Source of the DNA: Runella sp. MFBS21
Lineage (GTDB): Bacteria; Bacteroidota; Bacteroidia; Cytophagales; Spirosomataceae
Length of the DNA stretch: 64,000 bases
NCBI RefSeq assembly: GCF_029433105.1
Contig: NZ_JARNTW010000005.1
Coordinates: forward strand, 253,659 to 317,658
Direction of reading: 5' to 3'
Shown: one piece after another, positions 7,958 to 44,486 of the stretch
Layout: every line of letters begins with the position of its first letter
Position numbering within the stretch: position 1 is the first letter of the stretch
Position numbers and translations under genes: made by a program
Notes under the pieces: model-generated
What the model was told of the DNA's origin: nothing
Seen by the model: only the letters and a program-made list of their open reading frames with translations
Database searches by the model: none

Positions 7958-8097
7958 AGACAGTAATCAAACAAAGCACAAAGTAAAAAGAAACACAAAT
8001 GGGAAACCAATTTTTGCATCTCAACAATTTTTTTTGACGCTTCATGCAACCTTGTAGTTCCTTCTTGCATCTTATGTATGAAATTAGCAGCCACAAT

Positions 8098-8390
8098 GAA
8101 AACAGTACCCGACTTTCCAAGTTTAGTTTGCGAGTTATGAAAAACTTGGAAAGTCAATATTTTGAATACGAACAGCCATTTTGAAAACAATACCCGACTT
8201 TCCAAGTTTAGTTTGCGAATTATGAGAAACTTGGAAAGTCAATATTTTGAATACGAACAGCCATTTTGAAAACAGTACCCGACTTTCCAAGTTTAGCTTG
8301 CGAGTTATGAGAAACTTGGAAAGTCACTTTTGAAGACCTAGTCAGACTTTCCAAGTAAAAGTCAATATTTTAGAATAACAGCCATTTTAA
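8098..8390. repeat. Three tandem 85-bp repeats, each an inverted repeat, plus a partial fourth
   Basis: Units start at 8098, 8183 and 8268 (exact 85-nt period). Each carries the 14-nt arms GACTTTCCAAGTTT and AAACTTGGAAAGTC around a 17-nt spacer (first copy 8110-8123 and 8141-8154). A degenerate partial copy follows at 8331-8390. It is non-coding and lies between divergent genes. Related single copies with the same 17-nt spacer are at 56001-56041 and 61375-61411. Confidence 0.9.
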
Positions 8391-11190: not shown

Positions 11191-11934
11191 CTAACGACGC
11201 GACGAAAACAAATGTAAAAACTCTTCTCTTTTTGTACGGGCGAGTTTGGCCTGAAGTTGGTTGCTCATAATGATTACATTCCAGTCTCCGCTTTTGTATT
11301 CTTTGATGTGTTTTAGGTTGATAATAAATTGTTTATGGGACCTGAAAAAACCTTTTTCGGAAAGTATTTCGTCAAAATAAGCCAATGTTTTAGAGGCTAC
11401 TACGAGCTTATTGTCTTTTAGATAAAATCGCGAATAGTTGCTGTCGGCTTCTATCAAAATAATGTCATCAAAGTCTAAAAACTGTACACCGTTTAAAGTA
11501 GAAATAGTTACTTTTTCAAACTTTCCTCTTTGATAATTATGATAAAGACTTTGGAGTTGTTCGCTACGGTTGGTGTTGATGGTTTGAAGGCGTGTAATCG
11601 CCGCCACTAATTCATGTTCATCAATAGGTTTTAGTAAATAATCAAAGGCGCTGAATTTGAATGCTTTAATGGCAAACTTGTCGTAAGCGGTAGTAAAAAT
11701 GATCGCAAAGTTGAGGTGCTCTGCCTGAATAGATTCGAGCATTTGAAACCCATTCATTTGGGGCATTTCAATGTCTAGAAAAACCAAATCAGGACGGTGT
11801 TTTTCAATACTTTTCCTGCCTTCTACACCATCTTTACATTCGTCAATGATTTTGATTTGTGGACAATATTTGTCGATTATCCGAACTAAGACATTGCGGC
11901 AGTGAGGTTCGTCGTCGATAATAATAGCGTTCAT
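11191..11934 (-). CDS. LytTR-family response regulator
   Basis: 247-residue cytoplasmic transcription factor. The receiver domain (1-120) has the acid pair Asp7-Asp8, phospho-acceptor Asp54 in LVFLDIEMPQMNGF and conserved Lys in LLKPIDEHEL. The C-terminal LytTR DNA-binding domain (about 140-245) has SNYSRFYL, LAYFDEIL and FFRSHKQFIINLKHI. Its ATG overlaps the stop of the upstream sensor kinase by 4 nt (ATGA), so the two are translationally coupled. It is the only response regulator in this part of the window, although two kinases with identical transmitter domains lie upstream. A likely target is the sequence repeated at 14236, 16516 and 31144, which contains a GTT core like LytTR half-sites; this is inferred. 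Confidence 0.93.
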   Translation of the reverse strand: MNAIIIDDEPHCRNVLVRIIDKYCPQIKIIDECKDGVEGRKSIEKHRPDLVFLDIEMPQMNGFQMLESIQAEHLNFAIIFTTAYDKFAIKAFKFSAFDYLLKPIDEHELVAAITRLQTINTNRSEQLQSLYHNYQRGKFEKVTISTLNGVQFLDFDDIILIEADSNYSRFYLKDNKLVVASKTLAYFDEILSEKGFFRSHKQFIINLKHIKEYKSGDWNVIIMSNQLQAKLARTKREEFLHLFSSRR

Positions 11935-12530
11935 ATGGGTATTTCGATAATAACGCGTGTTCCGGTGGGATTGGTCAAATCTTGGGTCGCGATAGTGGCG
12001 TCGAGGTTATAGAGTTGTTTGAAAATATCAAGTCTTTGGGAAGTGATTTTCATACCAAAGGATTTATGATTGGTAGAAGTTTTGCTTTTGAGTTCGGCGG
12101 CTTTGAGTCTACCGATACCGTCATCTTCGACCACGATTTGGATGCTTTTGTCTTTGGGTTGGGAGATGAAGATTTTGACCCACCCATGTTCTTCTTTTTG
12201 CATGATTCCATGCCAAATGGCATTTTCGACAAAAGGCTGAATGAGCAGAGGTGGAATTTCAATGAAATCGTCTTCGATGAGTGGGTCGATTTGAATGATA
12301 AAGTCAAACTTATCGCTAAACCTGAGTTTTTCCATTTCGAGGTACAGGTGCAGGGTTTCGATTTCGTTTTTGAGGGTAATTTTTTCTGATTTTGAGTTTT
12401 CGAGTACCAGCCTAATGAGTTTAGAGAATTTGGTGAGATAGACCGAGACATGCTCGGTATCGTTGTTGAGGGCGTAGCTTTTGATAGAATTGAGGCAATT
12501 GAAGATAAAATGTGGATTCATCTGCGAGCG
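11927..12530 (-). repeat. 604-bp perfect direct repeat, copy 1 (kinase 1 transmitter)
   Basis: Identical base for base to 14377-14980 (constant offset 2450). It runs from the Arg codon just before SQMNPHF in kinase 1 through its stop codon and into the first codons of the LytTR gene. Flanking DNA on both sides is different. Confidence 0.98.
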
Positions 12531-14042
12531 TAGCGCCATCATTTCGGTTTCGGAAAGACGCTGTTGAAAAACTCCCTCCTTTTCAATAAATAGTGCTTTT
12601 TGACGGGATTGATGAAATAAAAACCAGCCTACCAAAAATGCAAAAAGAAAAAGCATAACAAAAGACCCCGTCAGAATGTTTTGTTTTTGGTTTTGTAGAT
12701 AAAGGCTTTGCCGAAGTTCATTGATTTTTAGATTTCGAATAATAAGTTCTTGGCGAGACTGTGCTTCGGCTGCTTGGGTCTTTAAACGTTGTCTTTCGGC
12801 TTTGCGTAGTAGTTCGGCAGTTCTGGCTTTTTGGTATAGAAACTTGTTTTTAGAGTCGGCTTTGAGTCTATTCATGATGCTTTGCCGTTCTAAATCCATT
12901 AATTTTTGTTGTTGAATTTGGAGTTGTTTCCAATTTTCTAGTTCAAACTTTTCTCTTTCAAATTGACTTTGTACGGCAGATACTTGTTTGTCTCTTATTT
13001 TACTAATCGTGAGAGCATTAAGCTCAGTGAATTTTTCATGATACTGAAGTGCTTTTTCCCAATTATTTTGTGCTTTGTAGACTTTATAAAGTGCAAAATA
13101 GGAGTTCTCATCCACTAGCGGGACATTGTCATTATGTCCAATTACTTTCTGGGCATATTGAAGGGCATTGTCGTATTGGTTCATCAAGACGGAGAGTTTT
13201 GCTAAATTACTCCAAACTTCTATCAACTGATTTTTTAAGTTGAGCTTATTCCAAATGTTTTCTGCCTTTTGAAAAAAATATAAAGCATCCTCATATTTTT
13301 TTAGGTAGACATAATTATCTGCTAAATCTCCATAAATCCAAGCTTTACTACTTTCTGAGCCATATTGAGATAGTTTTTCGATTGCAATCGTGAGATACGT
13401 TTCTGCTTTTGCAAAATCATTCAGCTTTTGATAGTTTTTTGCAATTCCTTGATAAATATTGGCATAGTGGCTTGCGATGCTTACGTCTAAAGTATTTATT
13501 TTGATAAGCTCAAGTGCTTCTAAGTACAGCGTTAGAGATTGTTCGTATTGCCGCATTTCGAAGTAGATTTCCCCTAAATTGTTTTTAAACCGAAACGCAT
13601 TTTCTTGGCTAAATCGTCGATTGTCGAGGTTTTTGATTGCTTCATAATTAAGGCGTATAGCTTCTGGAAAATTGATATTGGCAATGCGTTGATAGTATTC
13701 TGCAACGATATATCCTCGCAATAAATAATCTCTATTTTTTAAGAGCTGACTTTCTTGAATGAGTTGGTTGGCGTAGTACAGAGACGTATCACGGCGTCCG
13801 TTCCAGATACGATATACGGTACCCAGAAAATAAAGCGTATAAAGTTTTGTAGTGTCTGTTTGGAAAGAACGCGGGATTTGAGATAAATAAACCATCTGTC
13901 GCTTGCCTAGTTGGGCAAGGCTATCTAAGTACATTTTATTACCCCGTTTGTCAAAGTTCACTTTGGGGAATGTAGTGATTTGGGCTATAGTTTTGTAAGT
14001 GACATTTCCCAAAATTACCACTAAAAATAAAATCACTCGCAT
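11931..14042 (-). CDS. TPR-containing LytS-type sensor histidine kinase
   Basis: 703 residues. A signal peptide (MRVILFLVVILGNVTYKTIAQ) leads into several TPR repeats (about 90-340), a coiled coil (about 345-450) and one transmembrane helix (about 459-478). The His_kinase domain has the phospho-His near 511 in SQMNPHFIFNCLNSIKSYAL, and the ATPase part has PPLLIQPFVENAIWHG and the G1 box VVEDDGIGR. The sensor is thus periplasmic TPR and the kinase cytoplasmic. It is coupled to the LytTR gene by an ATGA overlap. Its last 200 codons are identical in DNA to the next kinase gene (604 bp without a mismatch). A good promoter lies at 14121-14151. Confidence 0.93.
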   Translation of the reverse strand: MRVILFLVVILGNVTYKTIAQITTFPKVNFDKRGNKMYLDSLAQLGKRQMVYLSQIPRSFQTDTTKLYTLYFLGTVYRIWNGRRDTSLYYANQLIQESQLLKNRDYLLRGYIVAEYYQRIANINFPEAIRLNYEAIKNLDNRRFSQENAFRFKNNLGEIYFEMRQYEQSLTLYLEALELIKINTLDVSIASHYANIYQGIAKNYQKLNDFAKAETYLTIAIEKLSQYGSESSKAWIYGDLADNYVYLKKYEDALYFFQKAENIWNKLNLKNQLIEVWSNLAKLSVLMNQYDNALQYAQKVIGHNDNVPLVDENSYFALYKVYKAQNNWEKALQYHEKFTELNALTISKIRDKQVSAVQSQFEREKFELENWKQLQIQQQKLMDLERQSIMNRLKADSKNKFLYQKARTAELLRKAERQRLKTQAAEAQSRQELIIRNLKINELRQSLYLQNQKQNILTGSFVMLFLFAFLVGWFLFHQSRQKALFIEKEGVFQQRLSETEMMALRSQMNPHFIFNCLNSIKSYALNNDTEHVSVYLTKFSKLIRLVLENSKSEKITLKNEIETLHLYLEMEKLRFSDKFDFIIQIDPLIEDDFIEIPPLLIQPFVENAIWHGIMQKEEHGWVKIFISQPKDKSIQIVVEDDGIGRLKAAELKSKTSTNHKSFGMKITSQRLDIFKQLYNLDATIATQDLTNPTGTRVIIEIPI

Positions 14043-14087
14043 GATTCAGGTAGATAAAAAGCATAGACAGCGGATGTGATATTGAAA

Positions 14088-14110
14088 TAAGATATTTAAA
14101 AAATATCTTA
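14088..14110. promoter_or_regulatory. Perfect 10-bp palindrome in the kinase 1 leader
   Basis: TAAGATATTT, a 3-nt AAA spacer, then AAATATCTTA. It sits just downstream of the predicted transcription start of kinase 1, where an operator or leader hairpin could act. Confidence 0.5.
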
Positions 14111-14120
14111 TCGTCCACCA

Positions 14121-14151
14121 CAAATCTACACTTTGAGCGAGTATTACCAAA
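14121..14151 (-). promoter_or_regulatory. Promoter of the TPR kinase/LytTR operon
   Basis: On the minus strand, TTTG (complement of 14148-14151), a 19-nt spacer and TAGATTTG (complement of 14121-14128) match the Bacteroidota consensus exactly. The start of transcription would be near 14114, about 70 nt before the ATG. Confidence 0.75.
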
Positions 14152-14235
14152 AATGAGGCTTTCTATGAAGGGAAGTTTAGGAGGTTTATAGACTCATTTT
14201 AAGGACAAAAAAGCAGTTTTTGGCCTATTCATAGG

Positions 14236-14296
14236 ACGTACACTCACTCAACCTATCACTACACTCAATGAAGATACCGTTTGCTAAATTTTGTTC
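14236..14296. promoter_or_regulatory. Shared upstream element, copy A
   Basis: Shares with copies at 16516 and 31144 the blocks CACTCA, CACTCAATG and TACCGTTTGCT followed by TTTT. It lies in the spacer between kinase 2 (end) and kinase 1 (start), about 85 nt upstream of the kinase 1 -33 box. It is less conserved on the right side than copies B and C. Confidence 0.7.
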
Positions 14297-14376
14297 TAAA
14301 TGCCTATTGAAACAAAAAATAATGCAAAAATACCTCGAAAAGAATTGCCTAAAAAGTCAAAAAGAGAAGAAGAAGC

Positions 14377-14980
14377 GCGTTCATATGGGTATTTCGATAA
14401 TAACGCGTGTTCCGGTGGGATTGGTCAAATCTTGGGTCGCGATAGTGGCGTCGAGGTTATAGAGTTGTTTGAAAATATCAAGTCTTTGGGAAGTGATTTT
14501 CATACCAAAGGATTTATGATTGGTAGAAGTTTTGCTTTTGAGTTCGGCGGCTTTGAGTCTACCGATACCGTCATCTTCGACCACGATTTGGATGCTTTTG
14601 TCTTTGGGTTGGGAGATGAAGATTTTGACCCACCCATGTTCTTCTTTTTGCATGATTCCATGCCAAATGGCATTTTCGACAAAAGGCTGAATGAGCAGAG
14701 GTGGAATTTCAATGAAATCGTCTTCGATGAGTGGGTCGATTTGAATGATAAAGTCAAACTTATCGCTAAACCTGAGTTTTTCCATTTCGAGGTACAGGTG
14801 CAGGGTTTCGATTTCGTTTTTGAGGGTAATTTTTTCTGATTTTGAGTTTTCGAGTACCAGCCTAATGAGTTTAGAGAATTTGGTGAGATAGACCGAGACA
14901 TGCTCGGTATCGTTGTTGAGGGCGTAGCTTTTGATAGAATTGAGGCAATTGAAGATAAAATGTGGATTCATCTGCGAGCG
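14377..14980 (-). repeat. 604-bp perfect direct repeat, copy 2 (kinase 2 transmitter)
   Basis: Identical to 11927-12530. It includes the kinase 2 stop codon and carries over the first seven bases of the response regulator gene (ATGAACG). After that the sequence diverges and an 11-codon frame ends in TAG, so no regulator follows this copy. Confidence 0.98.
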
Positions 14981-16384
14981 CAAGGCGGAGATTTCTACCT
15001 CCGCGATTTTTTGCTGAAACATATCCGTAATTTGTCGAATGCGTTGTTCTTCCAATTGTTTGTTTTGAAGCTCATTTTCATTGATTCGGAGATTTAGTTC
15101 ATTCTCAAGTCGAGCCATATAGTTTTTTTGAAGAGCAAGATGTTCCTGTCTTATCAAGCGTGTACGTTCGCTGAGTGCTAAAGAAAAGAAGGCCAATTCC
15201 CAGATAGTACCACAGCCAAAAGAGACCAAAGGACTTAGCCAAAAATCATTTACCTCTTTGATTTCTAGTACCTCTCTAATCACCGCTATAGTAGCTGCCA
15301 ACAATACCCCACAAGTGCCTATCAGAATAAGACGAGTCTGGGGTATGGCAGAAAAACCTGTTTTGAAGACAATGATAGCGATTAGTAAATTGGTGAATAC
15401 CAACAACATATCTGCGTAGTCGGTGAGGTGTAAGTCGTAGTGCCTAATGGCAAATACCGCAAACACAAAACAAATCAACATAATCACTAAGCTGCCTTTT
15501 AGAAAGCGATGAATGGCTTTGCTGTGATGCTCTATTGATAGAAAAGAATTTAAAAAAAGTAAATAGGTAATTTGGACTAAAAACTGAACCGCGATAGCCC
15601 AAGGAAGAAATCGTCTATCGTCTTTGAGATTGGTGAGAACCCCTAACTTAAAAGAACGATCGAGTTCGGTAAAAAAGAAAAACGAATTGACTAAAAGATA
15701 ACTCGCCCAAAAGCCATAAGGGAGATCTTTGCCATAAGCGTACTGGACAAACGCAAAAATTCCCAAGAAAAAACACAATCCAATCACCATCCATATAAAG
15801 ATATAGCGTTGGGAATAGTTAAAATCAATTTGAGGAAGCAAACGCTTAAAGGTACTCTCGGCGTATAATTCTGGGTGGAAGTCGCTAAAATGCCTAGAAA
15901 GTGAAGTACGAATCCAATAAGTGACCGTTTGGTGAGGTAAAACACTAAAAGAAATTTGGTTGTGGTTGTTGAAGAAGGATTTTTGGAGATTACTTTGATG
16001 AACTACTCTATATTCTTTTTTGAAGACATCATCGAGGTGTATATCTCCTGCCCACAATACCAAACGAAGCGTGTCTTTGGGATGAGTATTGTTGATATTT
16101 AGCCTTACCCAAGTCGTGACAGATTTATGTCTAAGTGCCAAATCAGGGTTATACTTCTCAAATACGATGTTGTGTGGGAAGGCTGCTGGATTAAAATTAT
16201 TGTAATAAAATCGGCAATAATCAATCACCGATAGATAGCCTTCGGGCAAAGTACCATTTAAGAAAAGGGTGTCTTTGTCGGTAGTTTGTGCCAAGCAAAA
16301 GCTCTGACATCCCAAAATAAACCAAATTCCCCAAAGCAACTTTGAAAAGTAAGAGGAAGCAGTACTTGATTCTGAACGAGGCAT
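14381..16384 (-). CDS. 7TMR-DISM LytS-type sensor histidine kinase without its own regulator
   Basis: 667 residues from the ATG at 16384 (MPRSESSTASSYFSKLLWG); a GTG 13 codons earlier lies inside the promoter and is rejected. A signal peptide ends at FCLAQ. A periplasmic 7TMR-DISMED2-like beta domain (about 35-180) is followed by seven transmembrane helices (about 190-400), a coiled coil and the His_kinase domain (phospho-His near 475 in SQMNPHFIFN, G1 box VVEDDGIGR). From that Ser onward protein and DNA equal kinase 1. It therefore senses something different but should phosphorylate the same LytTR regulator. The gene ends with no regulator gene after it. It has its own consensus promoter. 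Confidence 0.93.
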   Translation of the reverse strand: MPRSESSTASSYFSKLLWGIWFILGCQSFCLAQTTDKDTLFLNGTLPEGYLSVIDYCRFYYNNFNPAAFPHNIVFEKYNPDLALRHKSVTTWVRLNINNTHPKDTLRLVLWAGDIHLDDVFKKEYRVVHQSNLQKSFFNNHNQISFSVLPHQTVTYWIRTSLSRHFSDFHPELYAESTFKRLLPQIDFNYSQRYIFIWMVIGLCFFLGIFAFVQYAYGKDLPYGFWASYLLVNSFFFFTELDRSFKLGVLTNLKDDRRFLPWAIAVQFLVQITYLLFLNSFLSIEHHSKAIHRFLKGSLVIMLICFVFAVFAIRHYDLHLTDYADMLLVFTNLLIAIIVFKTGFSAIPQTRLILIGTCGVLLAATIAVIREVLEIKEVNDFWLSPLVSFGCGTIWELAFFSLALSERTRLIRQEHLALQKNYMARLENELNLRINENELQNKQLEEQRIRQITDMFQQKIAEVEISALRSQMNPHFIFNCLNSIKSYALNNDTEHVSVYLTKFSKLIRLVLENSKSEKITLKNEIETLHLYLEMEKLRFSDKFDFIIQIDPLIEDDFIEIPPLLIQPFVENAIWHGIMQKEEHGWVKIFISQPKDKSIQIVVEDDGIGRLKAAELKSKTSTNHKSFGMKITSQRLDIFKQLYNLDATIATQDLTNPTGTRVIIEIPI

Positions 16385-16422: not shown

Positions 16423-16453
16423 CAAAGCTACATTTAAGAATGACATCCCCAAA
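16423..16453 (-). promoter_or_regulatory. Promoter of the 7TMR-DISM kinase
   Basis: Minus strand: TTTG (complement of 16450-16453), a 19-nt spacer and TAGCTTTG (complement of 16423-16430). It has the same layout as the kinase 1 promoter. The predicted start is near 16416, about 32 nt before the ATG at 16384. Confidence 0.75.
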
Positions 16454-16515: not shown

Positions 16516-16614
16516 ACACACACTCAGCCAACTCCCTACTACACTCAATGCCTCTACCGTTTGCTCAGTTTTGAATTGAATCTAAATCAAATGAGTGAAG
16601 ATTAGCGCTGGAAA
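16516..16614. promoter_or_regulatory. Shared upstream element, copy B
   Basis: Matches copy C (31144-31242) over nearly its whole length, including CCAACTCC, CACTCAATG, CTACCGTTTGCTCAGTTTT and GTGAAGATTAGC. It lies between kinase 2 and the FN3 lipoprotein gene, about 85 nt before the lipoprotein start. Confidence 0.75.
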
Positions 16615-16699: not shown

Positions 16700-18520
16700 A
16701 TGATGAAAACTTTATCCAAATATTTTAAGGTCGCTCATGTGTTGCTCTTATGGGGGCTAGTTGTCTATGTAGGATGCCGTACCAATAAAAACGACCCTAC
16801 TGCGAGTTTGCCTATATTGGGAAATGTCAAAATCAATGACATAAAAACCACCTCAGTACAAGCCTCTTGCTCCATTTCCAAAGTGGGCGTAGGCAGTGAT
16901 GGAAGTTCATCAATCAAAGAATATGGGATTTGCTATGCCACGAAAGAAAAACCAACTATCAGCGATACTAAACTAAAAGCTGGTGAAAAAACCGACATCC
17001 CTGTCGACTTTCAGGTGACTATTTCGGGGCTTACAGCCAATACCAAATACTATGTAAGAGCATATGTACTCCACGAAGGAGACCCTGTGTATAGTGAAGA
17101 ACTCGCCTTCAGTACTACTGCCCAAAAAGCGCCAGAAGTTACTACAGGAACGGGCGAGAATATAACAAGCACTTCTTTGGAAGTTTCGGGGAAAATAGCC
17201 AATATAGGTAGCAGTGATGTAGTTCAACATGGTCATGTATTATCTGAAACCAACCAAACTCCTACGACTTCCGATTTTAAAACCGAACTTGGCACGGCCA
17301 ATGCTCCTAAAGATTATAAGAGTGGTTTTTCGGGACTTAAAGCCAATACTACTTACTACGTACGTGCATATGCGACCAACGCCGCTGGTACAGGCTACGG
17401 CTCTGTAGCGACCATAAAAACTGCAAACGTAGTGGCTTCCACCGTGACAACTGGCAATGTAACTAACATCACAACCTCCTCGGCCGATGTGGGTGTAACC
17501 CGCAATACGCTCGGAACAACGACCAATGGGCAAGTGGGTATCTGCTGGAGCAGTACGAATCAGACCCCTACCATTGCCGATACCAAACGCGAGAATGGGT
17601 CTTCAAACGCACCTGAGTTTTTTAATATAAATCTAACAAATCTTAACCCCAACACTACTTACTATGTGCGCGGCTATGCTACTACGGCTGCCGGAACAGG
17701 CTATGGTGAAGTAAAAAGTTTTAAGACAAATGCTGCTGTTCCTACCATAGGCTATACCTCCGCTTCCTTTAGTACGATTGTCAATTTGGAAAGTGATGAT
17801 GATAGAATAGCCCTTAGGTGTACTCTTACTACCAATGGAGCACAAATTGTGGAATATGGCTTTGTGGTTCATGATTCTAAAACTGCTAACCCAACGCTTG
17901 ACAATAACGTTTTGAAAGTGGTAAGTACGACCTCAATAAATGGTTATGGCGTAATACTGAGTGGAATTAAAAAAGCAGACATCGCAAAACTGGAAGCTAC
18001 TAATAATTTCAGAGCTTACATTAAAACCACTGACGGCGTTTACTACGGCAGTAGCCAAACCTTTTCTTATACCTATCCTCCCGAGTTTAGCAGTTTAAAG
18101 TTTGATTGCAATGGTACTTCTTTTACCGTAACCAAGTACAGCCGTACTCCTCAAATAACGGAAATAGGGGAAATTGAAATATTGAGTACCAACTATGCAC
18201 AAGTAACCCCTCAAACCCTACCTCCAAGTACAAGTTACACCACAAAAGGATATTTCAGTATTCCCTCGGGCGATAATAGCTATGCGCTTTATGTGTATAA
18301 CACTACCGGAAAACTCATCAGTTTGCTTCCTTCTGCTAATGGAAAAGTATATACAACCAATCGTAAAACGGAAGGAGGAAGTTTACAAGCACCTTGTAGT
18401 AGCTATCCTTGGAGGTTAGTAATTCCTTATGTTAAAATGGCCAATGGTACGGTCTATTATCCTAATCCCCCTTCTATCAAACCAGTCGAGAAGTGTTTTA
18501 TTGACTGCACAGTAAAGTAG
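16700..18520 (+). CDS. Secreted or lipid-anchored protein with FN3-like repeats
   Basis: 606 residues. The hydrophobic N-terminus ends in VVYVGCRTNK, a near-lipobox (Tyr at -3), so it is either lipid-anchored or cleaved. Several repeated beta domains of about 95 residues follow, each with a block like LTANTKYYVRAYV, LKANTTYYVRAYATNAAGT or LNPNTTYYVRGYATTAAGT. These are FN3-like domains common in Bacteroidota surface proteins. The C-terminal 170 residues look unrelated and include several Cys. No enzyme motif was found. It starts with two ATG codons in a row (16700 or 16703). It is first in a plus-strand run of envelope genes and is preceded by shared element B. Confidence 0.75.
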   Translation: MMKTLSKYFKVAHVLLLWGLVVYVGCRTNKNDPTASLPILGNVKINDIKTTSVQASCSISKVGVGSDGSSSIKEYGICYATKEKPTISDTKLKAGEKTDIPVDFQVTISGLTANTKYYVRAYVLHEGDPVYSEELAFSTTAQKAPEVTTGTGENITSTSLEVSGKIANIGSSDVVQHGHVLSETNQTPTTSDFKTELGTANAPKDYKSGFSGLKANTTYYVRAYATNAAGTGYGSVATIKTANVVASTVTTGNVTNITTSSADVGVTRNTLGTTTNGQVGICWSSTNQTPTIADTKRENGSSNAPEFFNINLTNLNPNTTYYVRGYATTAAGTGYGEVKSFKTNAAVPTIGYTSASFSTIVNLESDDDRIALRCTLTTNGAQIVEYGFVVHDSKTANPTLDNNVLKVVSTTSINGYGVILSGIKKADIAKLEATNNFRAYIKTTDGVYYGSSQTFSYTYPPEFSSLKFDCNGTSFTVTKYSRTPQITEIGEIEILSTNYAQVTPQTLPPSTSYTTKGYFSIPSGDNSYALYVYNTTGKLISLLPSANGKVYTTNRKTEGGSLQAPCSSYPWRLVIPYVKMANGTVYYPNPPSIKPVEKCFIDCTVK

Positions 18521-18577
18521 TTCATTTCTAAAAATCTTATTCTAAAAAACTCGTCGGAGGTTAAACGAGACAATACC

Positions 18578-19408
18578 ATGAAAAAAATAACTTCTTTTTT
18601 TTTGCCACTTGTATGTGTTTCAATGCTGTTTTTATTAACGGGCTGCCCCAAACCTGCTGACCCTGATTACAAAGCCTCGATTAAAGCTAAATATCAACAA
18701 CTGGGCTGGATGCCAGAAGCCGATAACGGTGGCGAACCAGTTAAAACCGCAAGTGGTAACGGTTGGGTGCAATATTATGGCAACAAAGACCGCGCAATTT
18801 ATTATATCGACGGAAAGGCATTTGGTTTCTTAAATTATGAAATGAAGAAATATGAAGCCCTCGGTCAAGATAAGTTTACGGCATTGGGTACGCCCACTTC
18901 TGATTGGCAACAGTTTTTGACGGGAATTACGGGTAATGAGTTTACTAAAGGAGTTATTGTTTCTACTCCAAAAGGTGTATTTGCCGTTTATGGCTCTATT
19001 TACGAAAAATACAAAGCCCTCGGCCGTTGGAATAGCCCACTGGGATATCCTATTGGTGATGAAGGTACCATGACTACTCGCAAAGAAGGACACTTTCAGC
19101 ATTTTACCAAAACTGGGCCGCTTGGGCAAATTTATTGGAGCCAAGCCACAGGTGCTCAGGCGTTTTGGGGAAAAGTAGAGGGTATGTACGGGAGAGCTGG
19201 TGTCGGATATGATGGCAGTTGGTTGGGCTTACCAAAGTCGAGCTGTGACCCAAATAAAGCTGATAATCAACAAACAGTGGATTTTGAGAAAGGAAAGATT
19301 ATAACTGGACCTACTTGCGGAGCTTACTTAAACCAAGCGAATGAAACGGTGTATCAAAACGGCGACAGAGCAGCTAATGTAAATTCTATTCCTTGTTATA
19401 ATTATTAA
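18578..19408 (+). CDS. LGFP-repeat lipoprotein
   Basis: 276 residues with a clear lipobox (LFLLTGC, Cys about 23), so probably anchored in the outer membrane. The body holds LGFP-type repeats: residues about 150-215 include KYKALGRWNSPLGYPIGDE, a GHFQHF strand and IYWSQATGAQAFWG, then GVGYDGSWLGLPKSS. LGFP repeats are best known from actinobacterial cell-wall proteins and are thought to bind glycans or anchor to the wall. Here the repeats may hold peptidoglycan or surface glycan; that is inference. It lies 57 nt after the FN3 lipoprotein and 17 nt before the next gene, so it is likely in the same transcript. Confidence 0.8.
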   Translation: MKKITSFFLPLVCVSMLFLLTGCPKPADPDYKASIKAKYQQLGWMPEADNGGEPVKTASGNGWVQYYGNKDRAIYYIDGKAFGFLNYEMKKYEALGQDKFTALGTPTSDWQQFLTGITGNEFTKGVIVSTPKGVFAVYGSIYEKYKALGRWNSPLGYPIGDEGTMTTRKEGHFQHFTKTGPLGQIYWSQATGAQAFWGKVEGMYGRAGVGYDGSWLGLPKSSCDPNKADNQQTVDFEKGKIITGPTCGAYLNQANETVYQNGDRAANVNSIPCYNY

Positions 19409-19425
19409 TCCATTCCTGAAAACTA

Positions 19426-20052
19426 ATGAAAACACTGTTTTTTACATCTATATTTTTCTTAGTTGGCCTTTTGAGCATGGCCCAAGAAACCACGTGGCGA
19501 GATGTACCTGCCAACGAGCTCAATGGCGTAGCTATCAATGATTTGCAGGGACGTATGCGCGAAAGCATGGCTTATGCCACCCGCTATGGGTTTGGGGCGG
19601 GAGTTCCTACCTTTGAAAATGGCAACCAAAACGGCCAAATCGTCTATGGGACAGTGCTTGTTCCTAAAAAATATGTGGAGTTCAAAGATATTCCTCAGTC
19701 AGAACTGGGCAATGTTGATTTAAACAACTTTCAGGAGCGTGTTCGTCAATCGATGACATGGGCCGCCAACCACGGCTACTCAGCGGGTATTCCTACTTTT
19801 TATCATGCCGATCATGGTCGTGGAGTCGTATGCGGAACGATACTTTTCAAACCAGATGCCGTCACATTCCGAGATATTCCACAGAGCCGTATGGAACCTA
19901 TCAACCGCGATGAGGCGGGTACAGCAGGCTGGGTAAGATCGGCAGTAAGGTACGCTTCTAAAATAGGGCAAGTGGGGGCTTTCCCTACCTTTCACCAAGC
20001 TACGTATAATGACAAGGGATTGGTTTATGGAGTTGTTTTTTTCAAAAAATGA
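19426..20052 (+). CDS. Secreted protein with three ~60-residue GxPTF repeats
   Basis: 208 residues. A signal peptide (MKTLFFTSIFFLVGLLSMAQ) precedes three tandem units. Each unit has the order (W/F)(R/K)D(V/I)P, then a helix-like stretch with RxSM or RSAV, then G(V/I/A)(P/F)PTF- or GIPTF-like text, then VYG or VCGT and a closing beta strand. The repeats fill the whole mature protein. I do not recognise a named family; similar units occur, from memory, in proteins of mixed bacteria next to LGFP-like domains. There are no catalytic residues to point to. It may be a sugar or surface binding module. It follows the LGFP lipoprotein by 17 nt. Confidence 0.7.
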   Translation: MKTLFFTSIFFLVGLLSMAQETTWRDVPANELNGVAINDLQGRMRESMAYATRYGFGAGVPTFENGNQNGQIVYGTVLVPKKYVEFKDIPQSELGNVDLNNFQERVRQSMTWAANHGYSAGIPTFYHADHGRGVVCGTILFKPDAVTFRDIPQSRMEPINRDEAGTAGWVRSAVRYASKIGQVGAFPTFHQATYNDKGLVYGVVFFKK

Positions 20053-20091
20053 CAAAATAGGGGACGAACTTACCTTTGGATTTCTACTGGT

Positions 20092-20463
20092 ATGAAGTAT
20101 CTTTTACTGTGTACTCTATTGTTTTCAATGGGCTATGGGGCAGCCACTGTTACCCATCAAAGTGTAATATCTCAAAGAATACCCGAACTCCATCCTACAG
20201 ATGAAAGAAAGCAACCGCGTCCCATTGAACCCTTAGCGCTGATTGCGTTTGGAACAACGATTTTGACCCCTGTTTTATTCTTTGGAGGTGTTGGGGTGGG
20301 AATTGTGGCGGTCATGGCACTTGGTAGCTTAACGCTCAGTATTATTAGTCTTGTGCGAATCAAACGCGGGAAGGAAAAAAAGAGGGGAAAAGGATTAGCC
20401 TTGCTGTCATTATTTTTTAGCCTGATTCTAACGGGTTTTGCTTTAATGATGGTGTTCATATAA
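20092..20463 (+). CDS. Small membrane protein, DUF4190-like
   Basis: 123 residues. A hydrophobic N-terminus (MKYLLLCTLLFSMGYGAATV) may be a signal peptide. A polar stretch with many Pro follows, then two or three hydrophobic helices (about 48-85 and 103-122) separated by a Lys/Arg-rich loop, IKRGKEKKRGKG. The helix-basic loop-helix pattern resembles DUF4190-type small membrane proteins. No function can be given. It sits 39 nt after the triple-repeat protein and 111 nt before the start of the barrel/giant/FN3 operon, and may be cotranscribed with either. Confidence 0.65.
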   Translation: MKYLLLCTLLFSMGYGAATVTHQSVISQRIPELHPTDERKQPRPIEPLALIAFGTTILTPVLFFGGVGVGIVAVMALGSLTLSIISLVRIKRGKEKKRGKGLALLSLFFSLILTGFALMMVFI

Positions 20464-20574
20464 ATAGTTTGAACTACTATTCAAGAATGAAAAATCTGTC
20501 TAAGACAGAGTAGTGCGGAGCATCGAGCCATGGTATGTTTTAAAAATGGAATGACCCTAAAATTTTTAATCCTA

Positions 20575-22254
20575 ATGAAGAAAGGAGAGCTATACCTTTT
20601 GCCCTTGCTACTGCTTTGGACGTTTGGCTTGTGCCCTGTATTCGCCCAAGACCTCAGTCAGCTTTCTGCCAAAAATCCCGTGAAGGTATCGGGAAGTGTG
20701 GGCGCACGAAGCTACTACAGTATGGGGAGTCGTAGTCCGTTGTACCGAGCCAATCCGTTTGGCTATGGGCTGTCGGGAAGTGTGACGATTACGTTGTTAA
20801 ATGGACTCAGCTTTCCTTTTTCGGTTAGTTATTCAAATCGTCAAACGAGTTTTGCCCAGCCTTTTAATCAATTTGGTATGAGTCCTACCTACAAGGGATT
20901 TACCCTTCACGCTGGCTACCGAAATCTACGTTTCTCAGACTATACCCTCAATGGCTTTACAGTGCTTGGCGGGGGCTTGGAAGTACAGAAAGGGCTTCTG
21001 AGGATGGGTTTTATGATGGGGCGGCTCAACAAAGCAATTACATCGGCCGAAAATCGCCCCACTACTTTTCGGCGTATGGGCTATGCGGCAAGGCTGGGCG
21101 TAGGGAAAGGACAAAACTACGTTGATCTGATTATGATGCAGGGCTATGACGACGCTACCTCACTGACAGATTATGAGAAGTTTGGACTGAGTCCAGCCAA
21201 AAATACGGTCGTGGGAGTGGTCATAAATAAGAGCTTTGGAACGCGACTGGTTTTTAATGCAGACGCCGCCTTTAGTATCTATACGGGCGATGTCAACGCC
21301 GCCAAAATAGACCCCGCCCTGCTTGAAGCTCAAGTGTCGCCTGTGCTCTACAAAACGGTTGATGTCAATATCTCTTCAAGAGGGTTAATAGCTGTCAGTA
21401 GCAGCTTGTCGTATAGTGGAAAAGGTTATGGGATTCGGGCAGGTTATCAGCGTATCGACCCAGGGTTTACGACCATGGGAATGTATAATGTGAATAACGA
21501 TTTGGAAATTATCTCCGTCGCTCCGCGTTTTAATCTTTTGAAGAATAAAGTGGTTTTTAATGGCAATTTGCGTCTTCAACGCGACAATCTCTACAGCGAT
21601 AAGCTACGAAGTACGCGGCGATTTTTGCCCTCTGCTACGCTATCAATCAATCCTTCGGCGATGTTTGGCTTTATGGTCAATGCCAATTACAGCACGCTCA
21701 ATCAAGCGCCGGGTATCAAGCAAACCGTTACGCAAGCAGTACAACTTATGAATCAGGCCAATTATACCCTGATGCTCATGCCTAGGCTTACATTTGTAAA
21801 TGAAGCGTTTAGCCACAATCTGATGTTATCCGTGGGGACTAACCAGCTCATCGATAACAGTACGGATACTACCTTTAAACGTAACACCGAATATAGTGGC
21901 CTTAATGCTAACTTTAATTATGGACTTTCGCTCGATAAACAGTTTTTAAGTGCTGATTTTGGGGTGAGTTATTTTTCCCTCACAAACATTGGTGGTACTA
22001 CCGATAACTTGGGTATGACGGCTGGGGTAAGCAAAGGTTTCCTGAAAAATAAACTTACTACCAATTTCAGTGCCAACTACAACCTATCTAAAGAGAGCAA
22101 CGCTATGAGTTTTTCGGCTTCGGCTCACATGAAACCTGCCAAACATCATCGCGTAGGGTTGACTGCTTACCAAGTGATGAGCCAAGATGAAACTGCTACG
22201 AATCGCAATTTCAATGAATTTAGAGGCACACTCGACTATACCTATACTTTCTGA
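20575..22254 (+). CDS. Outer-membrane beta-barrel protein, first gene of giant-protein operon
   Basis: 559 residues from the ATG at 20575 (MKKGELYLLPLLLLWTFGL), ending its signal peptide at FAQ; an ATG 15 codons upstream would spoil the signal peptide. The mature part is made of alternating polar and aromatic strands (SVSYSNRQTSFAQPF, FTLHAGYRNLRFSDY and many more) and ends FRGTLDYTYTF, a C-terminal aromatic typical of outer-membrane barrels. No CarboxypepD_reg or plug domain is seen. The stop is 2 nt before the start of the 2267-residue giant protein, and the third gene overlaps the giant, so the three are almost certainly one unit. It is a possible pore or assembly partner; no family name is certain. 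Confidence 0.78.
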   Translation: MKKGELYLLPLLLLWTFGLCPVFAQDLSQLSAKNPVKVSGSVGARSYYSMGSRSPLYRANPFGYGLSGSVTITLLNGLSFPFSVSYSNRQTSFAQPFNQFGMSPTYKGFTLHAGYRNLRFSDYTLNGFTVLGGGLEVQKGLLRMGFMMGRLNKAITSAENRPTTFRRMGYAARLGVGKGQNYVDLIMMQGYDDATSLTDYEKFGLSPAKNTVVGVVINKSFGTRLVFNADAAFSIYTGDVNAAKIDPALLEAQVSPVLYKTVDVNISSRGLIAVSSSLSYSGKGYGIRAGYQRIDPGFTTMGMYNVNNDLEIISVAPRFNLLKNKVVFNGNLRLQRDNLYSDKLRSTRRFLPSATLSINPSAMFGFMVNANYSTLNQAPGIKQTVTQAVQLMNQANYTLMLMPRLTFVNEAFSHNLMLSVGTNQLIDNSTDTTFKRNTEYSGLNANFNYGLSLDKQFLSADFGVSYFSLTNIGGTTDNLGMTAGVSKGFLKNKLTTNFSANYNLSKESNAMSFSASAHMKPAKHHRVGLTAYQVMSQDETATNRNFNEFRGTLDYTYTF

Positions 22255-22256
22255 AA

Positions 22257-25200
22257 ATGATGAAAAAGGCATTACTATTTCTTTACTTCTTGGCTATCAG
22301 TATGGCTACTTGGGCGCAGTATCCTGTTCAAGCAACGCTTTCTGTCAACGCGCCTTATTCAAATCTGTTTGGAGACTATCTGAAACCAGAAAAAGTACAG
22401 CTACAACTTTTCGGAAATAACACTGAGGTCAGAATCACAGGTTCGTTGAGAAGCAATACAGGCGTTGATTTGAGTTTACCCGACAATCTTGAATATTATA
22501 CAGGTGATAAGAGCGTTTATCCGATTGTAGTTACAAATGCGGGTAAATTGTTGAATTCTAATGATTTACAGCAGTCTTATTCGGCCGAGAAACTACTTGA
22601 TAAAAGTACCCAACCTCTAAAATTAGATGCTATCGGTAATTATATTTTGCCCGAAGGAGACTATGAACTTTGTGTCAAAACTTTTGAAGCAAACGGGTAT
22701 AGGCAGCTATCTGAACAGGTCTGTTATAGGTTCACGATTACTTCTATCGAAGCCCCATTTCTGTTACAACCCCAAAACAAAGAATCCATTGCCAACGCAA
22801 GTGCCAACTATCAACCTTTGCAATTTTCGTGGACAAGCACGGCAGGTGTACTACCAAGTCGTATCAAATACAATCTTCAAATAGCCGAACTGCTCCCCAA
22901 TCAAAACGAATACGATGCTTTTCGGTCGGGGCCGTTGTTTGCAGATATTCAAATAGAAAATGGTAGCCCTACATACTTATACAAGGCAAGTGACCCCAAA
23001 TTTGAAGTGGGGAAAAGCTACGCTTGGCGCGTGGTAATAGCTGAAAAAGAACCGATTTCTAAGTATTACTCTTTCCAAAATCAGGGACTTAGTGAAGTTT
23101 TTACGTTTAAGTATGGTGGAAGTGATCCTTCCAGTCCCTTTACTATTTCGGCTGCTTATCCCAAAAACAACCGAGCGATGCCTTTTAGAGGAATGCCCTT
23201 GGTAATCCAATATGCCCCCTACAAAGAAAGCTATCAGCGTTTTGATTTTAAGTTAAAAGTATGGGATGAAAAAAACAAAGAAATAGGCTCAAATGAAGCG
23301 AGTAACGACTGGTCAAGGTTTAATTCACCCGCCAAAGCGCAGGAGTTCGCCTTAAAGGGAATACCCGTCGATGATATTCTCGCCACTTTTCTGCCACTGA
23401 GTCTGCCTGAGGGCACAGCGGGGGCTAAGTTGTTGGCCGAATTTGAAAAACATCGTATCGCAAAATGGGGGGTCAATGCTATTATGACCGATAAGCCTGG
23501 CAAAGAGCTGAGTGGCAGTTGCAATGCGCAATTTGTCGCGGGTATGGATCAGCCTGTGTTGAAAACTCCCGCTGCCAATGCTAAAATAAACGATACAGGT
23601 GAGCTAACCTTCGAGTTTGAAACAAGCAAGCGACCCGCCGACGAAGATTTATTCCCGTTTGACATCACCCAGGCACAAAATGGAACAATAGGAAAATATA
23701 AATTGAGTGTCAATGAAAAGTATGTATTGGAAGTAGCCACTTCCAAAGAGTTCAAGCCAGACGACATCAAAGCTGTTCGGTCAGGGCAATTGACTGTCAA
23801 TTCGGGGGACATTAAAAATGCTGCCCAACTGGCCGACTTGACGTATGCTACAATTTCTCAAAAAATACCCCTTACCACCGAGGTGATGTATTACTGGCGC
23901 GTAAAATGGCTCACCGATCCTGCTGCTGACGAAAAAAGCGCGCATTACGCGGTCAGCGAAATACGCTCGTTTTGTGTGGGAAAGTGTGGATCTCCACCAC
24001 CACCTGACCCCGTTGTAACTATGGCCGAATGCAGCGGCTGCAAGTTTCCTGATATTCAGGATAAAATAGAAGAAAAAGCCAATCTGGCAGAAAGCAAAAC
24101 CTTTTTGGCGGGTGGCACCAAAGGCTACAAAGTGGCCATTAATAAAATAAGCGATGCCAACAGCGGCAAAGGGGAAGGTATTGCAACCATTTTGGGTTTG
24201 CCCATGCAGGTAACATTTGAAGGAGTAAAAGTAAACAAAGACGGGGTCATGTTTGCGGGTAAAATTATGTCTAAGAAAAACAGTAGCGGTATCCCGAGCC
24301 TCATGCCCGATGCTACGCTGCCCAACAAACTGCCCGATTTTGATAAATTGACCAACACCAACGGCCTCACGCCTGATTTGACCAACCCCACACAGCTCGA
24401 AGCCCAAGCCCAACAAGTACAAACCGAACTTAAAAACCGCTGGGGACAAATCACCAACTATATCAATGAAAATGCGGCTACTCTCAAAAATGCTCCCAAC
24501 ACTGCTGGCTGGCAAACGCCCCTGGGTTTTACCCAAAACGCTGGTGGAGTGGACATTACTACGGCCTTCGAGAATTTCCTGATTACGCCCACCAATGCCC
24601 AGTTTGACGTAATGACGGTGGTGGAACTAAAAGAAGAAAATATCGTGATTCCATTTGGTTTCAAAGGAGCGTGCATTGGGATAGAAGGCAGTTGCCAGGA
24701 ATATACATTGTACCTCTACAAAGATGTGCCTATCAGTAACTTAACCCTTAAAGGAGGTGCGGACTTGAGCAAAGCTACGTACGTGGTTTACAATACTAAA
24801 GATGGATTCAAACAGATCAATATTTATGCCGAATACGAGTTTAAAAAAGACATCATTCGCCGCAAAGACAATGACGAAAAAGTAATAGCCACGCTCAAAG
24901 CCCAAACACCTAACGGGTTTTCGGACTGGGTAGCCAAGGTAAGCATCCCCGCATTTAAAGTACACGGCATGGAAGACCTTGACTTTGAACTTGTAGGTGA
25001 AGCTACCTACGACCACAGCGACAAAGAAAACCCTGCTGGTATGGACAAAATGCTGGCGGCTCTCGAACCTAAACTCCCCAACAATGACAAAGGAGACGTG
25101 GGTTTGCTGAAAGAGAATACGTGGAAGGGGTTTTATTTGCCCCAACTCAAAGTAACGCTGCCCGAGGTATTCAAAGCCGACCAGAAAGACCGCGTAAACG

Positions 25201-28200
25201 TAACGGTTAATAATTTTGTAATTGATAGCCGTGGTGTAACAGGGAGTTTGGTCGCTAAAAACGCCATTGGTATCGGCGACGGAAATCTGGCAGGTTGGTA
25301 TTTTTCGTTGGATAATTTCAACGTTACTTTTTTCAATAACGTGTTCATCGAAGCTGCTGCCGATGGCAAAATCGTGTTACCAATCTCGGGCGATGACAAA
25401 AGTACATCCCTTGCTTATACCACCACCCTTACCAAAGACAAAGAAGACAGCAAGCTGAAGTATCAGTTTGTGATTAAACCTGATAAAGATAAAGACATCA
25501 GCGCATCTATCTGGAAAGCCAAAATGAGTTTGTTGGCCACTTCTAACATCACTGTAACGGTGGGTGATAAAGCAGTGAATGAAGGTAAATTTCTGGCAAA
25601 GGCCGATTTGAACGGTGAGATGAGTTTTGATGTAAGCGAAGCCGTAACCGATGTCGCAGGCCTACCGCTACCGAGTTTCAAATTGGATATGTTTACATTT
25701 CAGGGACTTAAAATACAAAGCCAAGCACCCTATATTGAGTTAGGAAATTTTGACTCGCCTGCCCTCAAAAAAGGAAAAGATGTTTACCAAGGCTTTTCGG
25801 GCTTTGTTAGCAAATTTGCCAGCCCCCAAAAGAGTATCGGGGGATTTCCATTTACAGTAGATGCCTTTATGCCTGTCATGAAAGACGGCAAAGTAGGGTT
25901 TGTATTTGGAGGTGGCTTAGAAATGTCAAATATTCCACTCAAACCCGTTGCCAAAGTAGGATTGTCTATTTTGGCTGATGTAAAGCTGGAAAATCTACGA
26001 CCCAAAATGCGTTTCGACGGGGTGTATTTAGACAGCGTATATGTTTCGGGAGAGTTGGGGCCTGTGAGTGTCAAAGGCTCATTGACTTTTTATCGTGGAG
26101 ACAAAACAATGGGGAATGGCTTTGCTGGTAACTTAAGGGCAACATTTCCTCCAAAAATTGCACTTGCTGCGGAGGCTAAATTTGGTCATAAAGACAATTT
26201 TGGTTATTGGTATGTCTATGCTAATCTCAATGGTTTCAAACTTCCTATGGTACCGCCCGCAGTTTATATTACAGGTTTTGGCGGTGGTGCCTATCATAAT
26301 ATGACTCTCACCACACCGATTGAGAAAGGTCAAAATATCACTACAAAGCCTAACTATATTCCGAAAGAAGGGCCAATTGGCATTAAGGCGGGCGTAAACT
26401 TATGTATTGTCAAAGAAGAAATAGCCGCAGGACAAGTGGTGATGGGAGCGGAGTTTGGCGATGGGCTTAAACTCACACTCGACGGTGATGTGCAGCTTAT
26501 CAATGCCTCTAACACCCCCTCCAAAGCAGGTGATGGGTTGATAAATGGCTCTTTCAATGCCATTTATGATAGTCAACAAAATCTTTTCGATTTCACGGGT
26601 AGTGTCACTGCCAAACAGGCTGGAATAGAACTTACTGCTGATAAAAACCTGCGGATTCATGCCAGCCCAGAGGGGTATTTTCTAAAAATTGGGGAGCCCG
26701 AAAATCGAATAAATTTGAATATCGTAGATGTCGCCACTGCCAAAACCTATTTTATGCTTGGTACAGACATTCCCGATATACCTGCTCCTGATGTGCCCGA
26801 TGATGTACTTCGTAAGCTCAACTATAAGCCTTTCAAAATGGATAATGCCAAGTCGGGAGATGGTATTGCCTTCGGAGCCTCCCTCAACGCCGCTGCAAAA
26901 ATAGACCTTGAAGTGGTGAGCGTAGGCTATCGCGCAGGGTTGGGCTTTGATATCAATCTTAAAAGCGGTGCTGGCGATTGCAACGGCAAACCCGCAGGCT
27001 TCAAGGGATGGTATGCTCAAGCACAAGCTTATGGGTATCTGCAAGTCACGGCAAGCGTGTTTTTGTTGGGTTCTACAAGTATAGGTTTGTATGCAAGACT
27101 GGGTACGGGGCTGCCCAACCCTACGTGGTTTGATGGCATGGTGTATGTCGAAAACCCTATCAAAGATTTCAGCTTGCCAGTTCAGATTGGTACCAAATGC
27201 GTAGTACGTACCAATCCGTTTGATAACAACCTTCTTATTAATAGTGTCAACATTAGCGCTGGCGAAAAAGACGTAAATGTGTTTCATTCTCCGGTACTGG
27301 TTCTGAATTATCCACTTGAATTTGAAGTGGATGCGCTTGATGACAACGAAAACCCTATCGTTGAGTCGTACAAGCTGGAAGTGGAAGCAGCTTATACAGG
27401 TACATCTTCTGCGTCGGTATCTACCAAAACGACCAACGATTTTATCTTAAAACGTGACGGGCAAACCCTGTTTTGGAATAAAGAAAGCATGTTTTTCCCC
27501 AAACAAGATTATCAATTAAGAGTATCAGCCAAGGCTTTGGTTAAGCGCGGCAATGAGGCAAATTATCAGGAGTATAAATGGAAAAACAACCCGGTCAGCG
27601 AAACAAGAAACATTAATTTTAGCACTGGAAAAATGCCCGATTCTTTTGATGACAATTTGGTAGTGGCACGGCTTCCATTTAAAAATCAACAATACGCATT
27701 GGCGAATGAATACAAACGTGGCCGCTTGGGAATGGCCACTAAAGTAGAGTTTACAACCTATAGTGACGAAGAACGGCAGTTTGAGGACAAACCTATCATA
27801 TTACTGACGAACCAAAAAACACAAAAAGCCGTAGAAATTCCTACCCAACTCGACGGAGCAGATATTGATTACTCTTTTGCAGGTGGCCTTTCTTCTTTTG
27901 GAGGAGCTGGGAAACTCGAAAAAAACACAGAATATACTGTCAAATTGGTATTGAGGGGAAAATCTTTGGTTTATACAACTGATGCTTCAAATACCACTTT
28001 TGCTAAATTAAATACCAAACCCAGTACTGCGCTTGATGCAGAAAGCAAAACCAATACCGTAAAAGCGACAGCTACTGGGGGAGAACGAATCACCTCTCTC
28101 AAAAATAACATGACTACATCCAAAAAGCTAGTTCTTGAAAAACAACCCGATTTGACGTTATATCAATACCGTTTTAAAACGAGTGAGTATGCTACTTTCA

Positions 28201-31143: not shown

Positions 31144-31242
31144 ACGCACACTCAACCAACTCCACATTGCACTCAATGAACCTACCGTTTGCTCAGTTTT
31201 AGCTTGGATCTATTATAAACGGGTGAAGATTAGCACTGAAAA
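31144..31242. promoter_or_regulatory. Shared upstream element, copy C
   Basis: Same blocks as copies A and B: CACTCAACCAACTCC, CACTCAATG, CTACCGTTTGCTCAGTTTT and GTGAAGATTAGC. It lies after the FN3 gene and about 50 nt before the start of the PQQ-propeller lipoprotein gene. Confidence 0.75.
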
Positions 31243-32762: not shown

Positions 32763-33335
32763 ATGGCTAAAAACATGATTTTGCATGATACGCGGCTACT
32801 GGGAAAAGCTCCTACCCATCTTGCGGATAATATTTTTAAAGTAAATAAAGAGAATAATATATCTCATATATTTGAGTGGATAGCCACCTATGCTCGTTCC
32901 CAAAATGGATTAGATAATCTTTTTATTATGTGTCATGGAGGTGCAAAACCTGCTGGAATAGAATCTGATAAAGCTGCCCAATCTATACCAAGTAGTGATG
33001 AACGAGGGTTGGCGATTGGGAAGGAGAATCTTCTGCTTTCTAATCTAAATGTGACAAGGGCCTTGTATGGCTTGGTCAAAAAAATTACAATTTATGCTTG
33101 TAATATAGCCCAGCAAGATAAAGGTGCCAAATATACTGCAAACGATGGTGAGTTGTTTTGTAGTTATTTGGCGGCTTATACCAATGCTGAAGTAATCGCG
33201 AGCCCTATGACTCAGAAATATAATAGAATTGGAATTTTTGCCCCTTTAACAGAAAGCGCAGGGACAATTGATTTTGGGGCATGGGAAGGACCAGTGTTTT
33301 CGTTTACGCCAGACGGTAAGAAAAAAAACCTTTGA
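32763..33335 (+). CDS. Caspase-like (DUF4347/CHAT-like) single-domain protein
   Basis: 190 residues, no signal peptide and no transmembrane helix. Two beta-strand motifs stand out: LFIMCHGG with His58-Gly59, and ITIYACNIA with Cys113, about 55 residues apart. A His-Gly plus Cys dyad on hydrophobic strands is the hallmark of clan CD (caspase-like) peptidases, and the text between (LGLAIGKENLLLS-like) resembles DUF4347, an uncharacterised relative. The assignment rests on motifs only and activity is unproven. An Ala-Cys rather than the caspase QACRG context fits CHAT/DUF4347 better. It lies 44 nt after the propeller lipoprotein and 54 nt before a serine hydrolase gene. Because it lacks an export signal it should be cytoplasmic. 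Confidence 0.5.
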   Translation: MAKNMILHDTRLLGKAPTHLADNIFKVNKENNISHIFEWIATYARSQNGLDNLFIMCHGGAKPAGIESDKAAQSIPSSDERGLAIGKENLLLSNLNVTRALYGLVKKITIYACNIAQQDKGAKYTANDGELFCSYLAAYTNAEVIASPMTQKYNRIGIFAPLTESAGTIDFGAWEGPVFSFTPDGKKKNL

Positions 33336-44449: not shown

Positions 44450-44486
44450 AACTACTTTGAAATGTAAAATTGAGCGAAAAACCATT

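Follow-up and report, generated by a model that had tools for sequence, protein, structure and literature searches.

In Escherichia coli, the LytS-type sensor kinases BtsS and YpdA carry a PF06580 module with the motifs NPHF and DDGIG, and each is encoded next to a LytTR regulator (BtsR and YpdB, respectively). BtsS is described as a 7-transmembrane pyruvate receptor (PMC10653868). The usual LytTR site is given as two repeats of 9 to 11 nucleotides (nt), 11 to 13 nt apart, and the YehT (BtsR) oligonucleotide holds ACCGCTTA-N13-ACCACTCA (PMC4847170). Shuffling of two-component domains is reported to be occasional, and in the parts of that source that we drew on, gene conversion is raised only as a possibility (PMC4603909). 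Here we describe a related locus of Runella sp. MFBS21 in a 64,000-nt stretch of contig NZ_JARNTW010000005.1 (positions 253,659 to 317,658), the whole of which is referred to as the window. Like the E. coli systems, it combines PF06580 modules bearing NPHF and DDGIG with an adjacent LytTR regulator gene, and all of its parts are of known kinds. Unlike BtsS/BtsR, it has two kinases (A and B) with unrelated sensors, one identical module, and one regulator gene; its sensors are of the TPR and 7TMR-DISM types, which also sets them apart from BtsS. We conclude, with a probability of about 0.78, that the modules of A and B are identical through recent gene conversion limited to the module, between two old and separate LytS-type kinases. 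The features concerned, in window coordinates, are as follows.

11191 to 11934, minus strand: LytTR response regulator, with Response_reg and LytTR domains
11931 to 14042, minus strand: sensor kinase A (703 amino acids [aa]), with an N-terminal hydrophobic stretch, TPR repeats, one transmembrane segment, and a His_kinase module
14381 to 16384, minus strand: sensor kinase B (667 aa from the ATG at 16384), with a 7TMR-DISM sensor and a His_kinase module
11927 to 12530, minus strand: repeat copy 1, comprising the kinase module of A, its stop codon, and 4 nt of the regulator gene
14377 to 14980, minus strand: repeat copy 2, comprising the kinase module of B, its stop codon, and 4 nt

The earlier note, which was made from the sequence alone, had claimed that these two places match over 604 bp without a single difference at an offset of 2450, and that the identical part is the kinase module from just before the phospho-His motif to the stop codon. 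Both claims were borne out. The maximal exact match is 604/604 bases with sharp ends; read on the minus strand, it consists of 199 codons from a LytS-type kinase module, running from RSQMNPHF to IEIPI, followed by the stop codon and 4 nt (ACGC). Beyond the upper edge, the first 60-bp interval is 0.48 alike, and similarity then falls to about 0.25, which is the chance level; beyond the lower edge it is about 0.2 to 0.3. The proteins have their C-terminal 201 residues in common rather than 199, because two further residues (A and L) are the same but are encoded by different codons. Among exact direct repeats of at least 24 bp in the window, this one is the longest; those that follow it in length (239 bp) are repeated units of a large repeat gene at 34.5 to 44.5 kb. 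In the window's own genome, 100% matches to the repeat were found at these two places only. Other kinases of that genome match it at 65 to 69% DNA identity over 335 to 522 bp, and four short pieces (45 to 58 bp) match at 82 to 87%.

Pfam domain analysis assigned TPR repeats and His_kinase (PF06580) to A and 7TMR-DISM_7TM and PF06580 to B. The PF06580 scores (85 bits for A and 85.6 bits for B) are both above the curated cut-off of 25.2. The HATPase_c scores of 21.7 and 21.5 bits fall under the cut-off of 26.4, and both modules contain PFVENAI, DDGIG, and SFGMK, which we take to be motifs of the ATPase domain. The regulator contains a receiver domain (92.2 bits; cut-off, 30.2) and a LytTR domain (57.0 bits; cut-off, 22.6). 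Hydropathy analysis revealed an N-terminal hydrophobic stretch (residues 1 to 22) and one transmembrane segment (residues 453 to 479) in A and a block of several transmembrane segments (residues 191 to 404) in B. The sensors belong to different Pfam families and are 0.28 identical in a forced global alignment, in agreement with the suggestion of the earlier note that they are unrelated. The regulator ATG overlaps the stop codon of A as ATGA. On the 3' side of B the same 4 nt are present, followed by unrelated DNA until A, and no regulator gene directly follows.

The recent origin that had been proposed for the tract is supported by its synonymous sites, none of which differs (about 125 such sites in the module). 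Three synonymous differences lie in the two codons that precede the tract. The adjoining codons on its 5' side are homologous yet diverged (FQQRLSETEMMALR in A and FQQKIAEVEISALR in B), and the 60 nt preceding the His motif are 0.52 alike. A flank of diverged homologous sequence, by which a conversion tract can be recognized, therefore is present on the 5' side in the window, and it is present on both sides in a second kinase pair (G019) that is described below.

The phylogeny of the module conflicts with that of the sensor. The nearest relatives of B's sensor are found in genomes G071 (41%), G136 (41%), and G509 (33%), and the modules attached to those sensors lie elsewhere in the module tree, apart from the window modules. 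The first module tree had 58 rows, three of which were long and belonged to a more distant type of kinase. These three were removed from later trees, and four modules were added for the tree used in the approximately unbiased (AU) test (59 rows). In this 59-row tree, both window copies and a module of genome G006 form a three-row group with support of 100/99; the support for this group after the three long foreign rows were dropped was 99. Forcing the window modules to group with that of G071 cost 32 log units (AU test, p 0.0036), and forcing them to group with all three cost 64 log units (p 1e-5). These rejections suggest that B's module probably is other than the one with which its sensor descended.

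A second case was found in G019, a Cytophagales metagenome-assembled genome (MAG) of the same family, in which the values of the pair equal those of JAAFKE010000008.1. Here, a regulator-adjacent kinase (open frame of 1044 aa) is accompanied by a kinase 4.4 kb away, whose sensor is 26% similar to that of A. The two sensors are 0.30 alike. The kinases are identical over 452 bp, starting 12 nt before the His motif; 26 differences follow up to the module end, and the stop codons differ. The G019 tract thus ends inside an older, diverged module and starts at nearly the same point as the window tract. Its direction is undecided: when the 26 differing sites were compared with four related modules, agreement with the two kinases was 11/12, 12/9, 8/7, and 11/9.

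Tandem pairs were surveyed in 222 genomes of the family, with the G019 module as the query, a cut-off of 1e-66, and at most 14 candidates scored per genome. Requiring at least two matches on one strand within 8 kb gave a list of 11 loci with 14 neighbouring pairs. These pairs are not independent, since some arrays are orthologous (contig C2 of the window genome and C3 of G012; G004 and G001). A long identical tract was observed in 2 of the 14 pairs, those of the window (604 bp) and G019 (452 bp); the survey alignment gives 597 for the window pair because the slice ends before the stop codon. In the other 12, the longest exact runs are 14 to 38 nt and module identity is 0.66 to 0.77. In the module trees, grouping within a locus was confined to the pairs of the window and G019, and the family contains at least two tracts of this kind. 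We rejected general concerted evolution of the tandem kinase arrays, since the modules of the orthologous arrays named above pair by position with their orthologues rather than with modules of their own genome. Beyond these pairs, a scan of 175 loci yielded one with high module identity (L046, a Bacteroidales MAG; 0.82 to 0.88), which looks like a gene duplication because the parts before the module also are alike (0.65 to 0.74). A PF06580 search of the genus counted 405 matches in 13 genomes.

The earlier note had left the choice between very recent duplication and gene conversion. Conversion is well supported by the sharp end of the tract in diverged homologues, the conflict between the sensor and module trees, and the second example, and plain tandem duplication is not, because neither the sensors nor the intergenic DNA are duplicated at the identity of the tract. 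Duplication of a whole gene to give A and B does not fit the sensor identity of 0.28 and the different Pfam families. In the event that we propose, a nonreciprocal homologous exchange would have replaced the module of B, starting 6 nt ahead of the QMNPHF codons and ending 4 nt beyond the stop codon, and the tract would be limited to the module because the unrelated sensors offered recombination no substrate. The transfer probably ran from A onto B. The 4 nt after the stop codon, which are part of the regulator gene in A, are also present after B, and in G006 a related module (69%) likewise overlaps a related regulator (60%) by 4 nt.

The exchange also can be dated approximately. With 0/604 differences, the upper 95% bound on divergence is 0.5%; between the window genome and its near relative G012, 11, 21, and 24% of synonymous sites differ in three orthologous modules of another array. 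In G012, contig C33 (locus L199) is 91% identical to the window as far as 11279, a position within the 3' end of the regulator gene. Similarity is regained over 102 bp at 33024 and then over a long stretch that begins at 33313. The gap suggests that about 21.7 kb (window 11280 to 33023) were deleted and that the scar keeps a 3' stub of the regulator gene. G012 thus seems once to have carried the locus, and in that case the exchange would be younger than the split from G012.

Several observations weigh against gene conversion or narrow what can be claimed for it. The first tree gave the group of the window and G006 modules at 94/13, and branches in the tree are long (0.35 for the window module, 0.40 for G006, and 0.59 for G071). 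Because the modules of A and B do not differ, the AU test concerns both of them. The 3' end of B has no diverged homologous flank, and there the tract end cannot be told from the junction of a duplication or deletion. The direction is weak, because a 4-nt extension would arise by accident with a chance of 1 in 256. A few true differences possibly were collapsed, since the exact identity rests on a single assembly of 72 contigs. Finally, a long exact tract is absent from 12 of the 14 surveyed pairs, so homogenisation is no rule of the tandem arrangement.

The alternative that survives best is a de novo chimera, in which a 7-transmembrane protein without a kinase of its own would have acquired, by fusion, a duplicate of the kinase module together with 4 nt from the regulator gene. 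Such a fusion would account for a tract that ends almost at the domain edge and extends past the stop codon. We consider it unlikely, as the codons of B before the tract already form the pre-His segment of the family in diverged codons, the same frame continues into QMNPHF in the four B-like relatives inspected (among 28 non-self matches), and the G019 tract ends inside an older module. It is very unlikely that the identity is an assembly artefact, with copies that are not truly identical or one copy filled in from the other. The 604 bp do exceed the length of short reads, the window copies come from a single 72-contig assembly, and the second case comes from a MAG, but each sensor is fused in frame to its repeat copy and neither open frame is interrupted by a stop codon, one of the sensors would lack a kinase if either copy were removed, and two separate assemblies show tracts with nearly the same start and different 3' ends. 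Selection alone, without exchange, has a negligible chance of having kept the modules identical: a shared regulator would constrain the protein, but selection at the protein level cannot hold about 125 synonymous sites identical, and four comparisons of tandem paralogous modules were saturated or nearly so at such sites (pS 0.66 to 0.77).

Module-limited gene conversion resembles domain shuffling and duplication of two-component genes in that it creates new pairings of sensor and kinase. Unlike domain shuffling, the exchange involved an output module and standing neighbours, with zero synonymous divergence. As in gene conversion between tandem paralogues, a sharp tract of identity lies in otherwise diverged homologues; here, the tract is confined to the signalling module. 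We found no module-limited tandem conversion in the literature on gene conversion, domain shuffling, or concerted evolution of histidine kinases, as judged from titles and the starts of abstracts, with subscription papers mostly outside this coverage.

Bacteria with many paralogous kinases are thought to insulate them by divergence of the dimerisation and regulator-binding surfaces. Between these two neighbours, that insulation seems to have been lost in a single natural step. The TPR and 7TMR-DISM inputs would act through an identical dimerisation/phosphotransfer and ATPase unit, and both kinases may act on the same LytTR regulator. That both sensors are kept able to signal to it, as the earlier note proposed, is plausible, given one LytTR gene and two identical modules. 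Two sensors with one output module and one regulator could form an OR-like or averaging input stage, and identical dimerisation domains would permit mixed A/B dimers. The pair offers a clean test of two questions: whether exchange of the output module alone is enough to connect a sensor to a new regulator, and whether different sensors then form mixed dimers. A more doubtful idea is that the locus is a recombinational sensor switch, in which mixed dimers merge the signals until a crossover occurs and repeated conversion keeps such switches working. If so, one crossover between the 604-bp direct repeats would remove 2450 bp containing sensor A and its promoter; a check of the reading frame showed that in the predicted product sensor B would be joined in frame to the module, which would still overlap the regulator gene.

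The regions upstream of the kinases and of nearby genes contain further candidate regulatory features.

14240 to 14285, plus strand: composite element copy 1 (ACACTCA-N14-ACACTCA-N7-TACCGTTTGCT), between A and B
16520 to 16565, plus strand: composite element copy 2, between B and the divergent fn3 gene
31148 to 31193, plus strand: composite element copy 3, upstream of the PQQ-propeller gene
14121 to 14151, minus strand: promoter-like site of the Bacteroidetes type (TTTG-N19-TAnnTTTG), upstream of kinase A
16423 to 16453, minus strand: promoter-like site of the same type, upstream of kinase B
16700 to 18520, plus strand: fn3 protein, first gene of the presumed target operon
31291 to 32718, plus strand: PQQ beta-propeller protein, downstream of element copy 3 and a presumed target
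14300 to 14380, plus strand: candidate start of a truncated gene (27 codons), facing element copy 1 and ending at the repeat edge; doubtful

The 46-bp LytTR-like element is new here, with three copies, all at this locus and within 17 kb. Its composite form, which was built from the three window copies, was searched as RCACTCA-N14-RCACTCA-N7-TACCGTTTGCT with up to 3 mismatches; it has three sites in the 7.88-Mb genome, and the reversed control gave 0. The exact form TGAGTGT-N14-TGAGTGT has two sites genome-wide, before A and between B and the fn3 gene. Looser forms are near chance, and only the exact and composite forms stand out: the short form with 1 mismatch gave 10 sites in the genome versus 6 in the reversed control, the short form with 3 mismatches gave 6 in the window versus a shuffled mean of 4.84, and the 15-mer CTACCGTTTGCTCAG with 3 mismatches gave 3 versus 1.26. 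The spacing fits the layout of a LytTR site (7-nt core and 21-bp period), making this a candidate LytTR site. Direct repeats with a 21-bp period are shared with the E. coli LytS/LytTR systems, and those of the BtsR oligonucleotide are close to ACACTCA-N14-ACACTCA (PMC4847170). No composite element was found within 6 mismatches in the 14 loci of relatives scanned, so conservation of the element cannot be shown. The candidate 27-codon start had no convincing homologue beyond itself among the matches listed from relatives' loci.

The two promoter-like sites are the only ones in the 64 kb; the motifs were taken from PMC2483708, and the N19 spacing was set in the present analysis. The open frame of B begins with a GTG at 16423, but the ATG at 16384 is the likelier start, because the -7 box of the presumed promoter covers this GTG.

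Judged from gene order, an fn3-led target operon presumably extends from about 16700 to 31102. The regulator may bind the three composite elements, which precede divergent surface-protein genes and the kinases, and so may control the fn3 operon and the PQQ gene; its own kinases could be further targets. Pieces of this operon (17207 to 22273, 22722 to 23119, 23706 to 25616, and 30146 to 31077) are 86 to 92% identical to G006 (contig C1, about 33.5 to 47.9 kb; loci L161 and L200); one 117-bp piece is 73% identical, and other stretches have no match. The window genes at 1 to 11 kb are 74 to 75% identical to those of G006, and the PQQ gene is 74% identical. In G006 the operon adjoins a different kinase and regulator at another chromosomal site, without the element. 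From this comparison, the target operon seems to have had a history different from that of the regulator and kinase genes, and the pieces of the surface-protein operon likely are shared with G006 by transfer.

Elsewhere in the window, a 3311-aa open frame (34550 to 44485) contains many near-identical 240-bp units at about 35.8 to 39.5 kb, and its likely counterpart in G012 reads as 1201 aa. Short direct repeats with 85-bp spacing lie at 8097 to 8356, upstream of the gene at 8569, and have matches at several places in G012. In G006 (locus L148, 6443 to 7268), five tRNA-Val(tac) genes are predicted in a row just upstream of a locus with a single kinase. The final two, each of 92 bases, contain an extra stretch and resemble degenerate copies.

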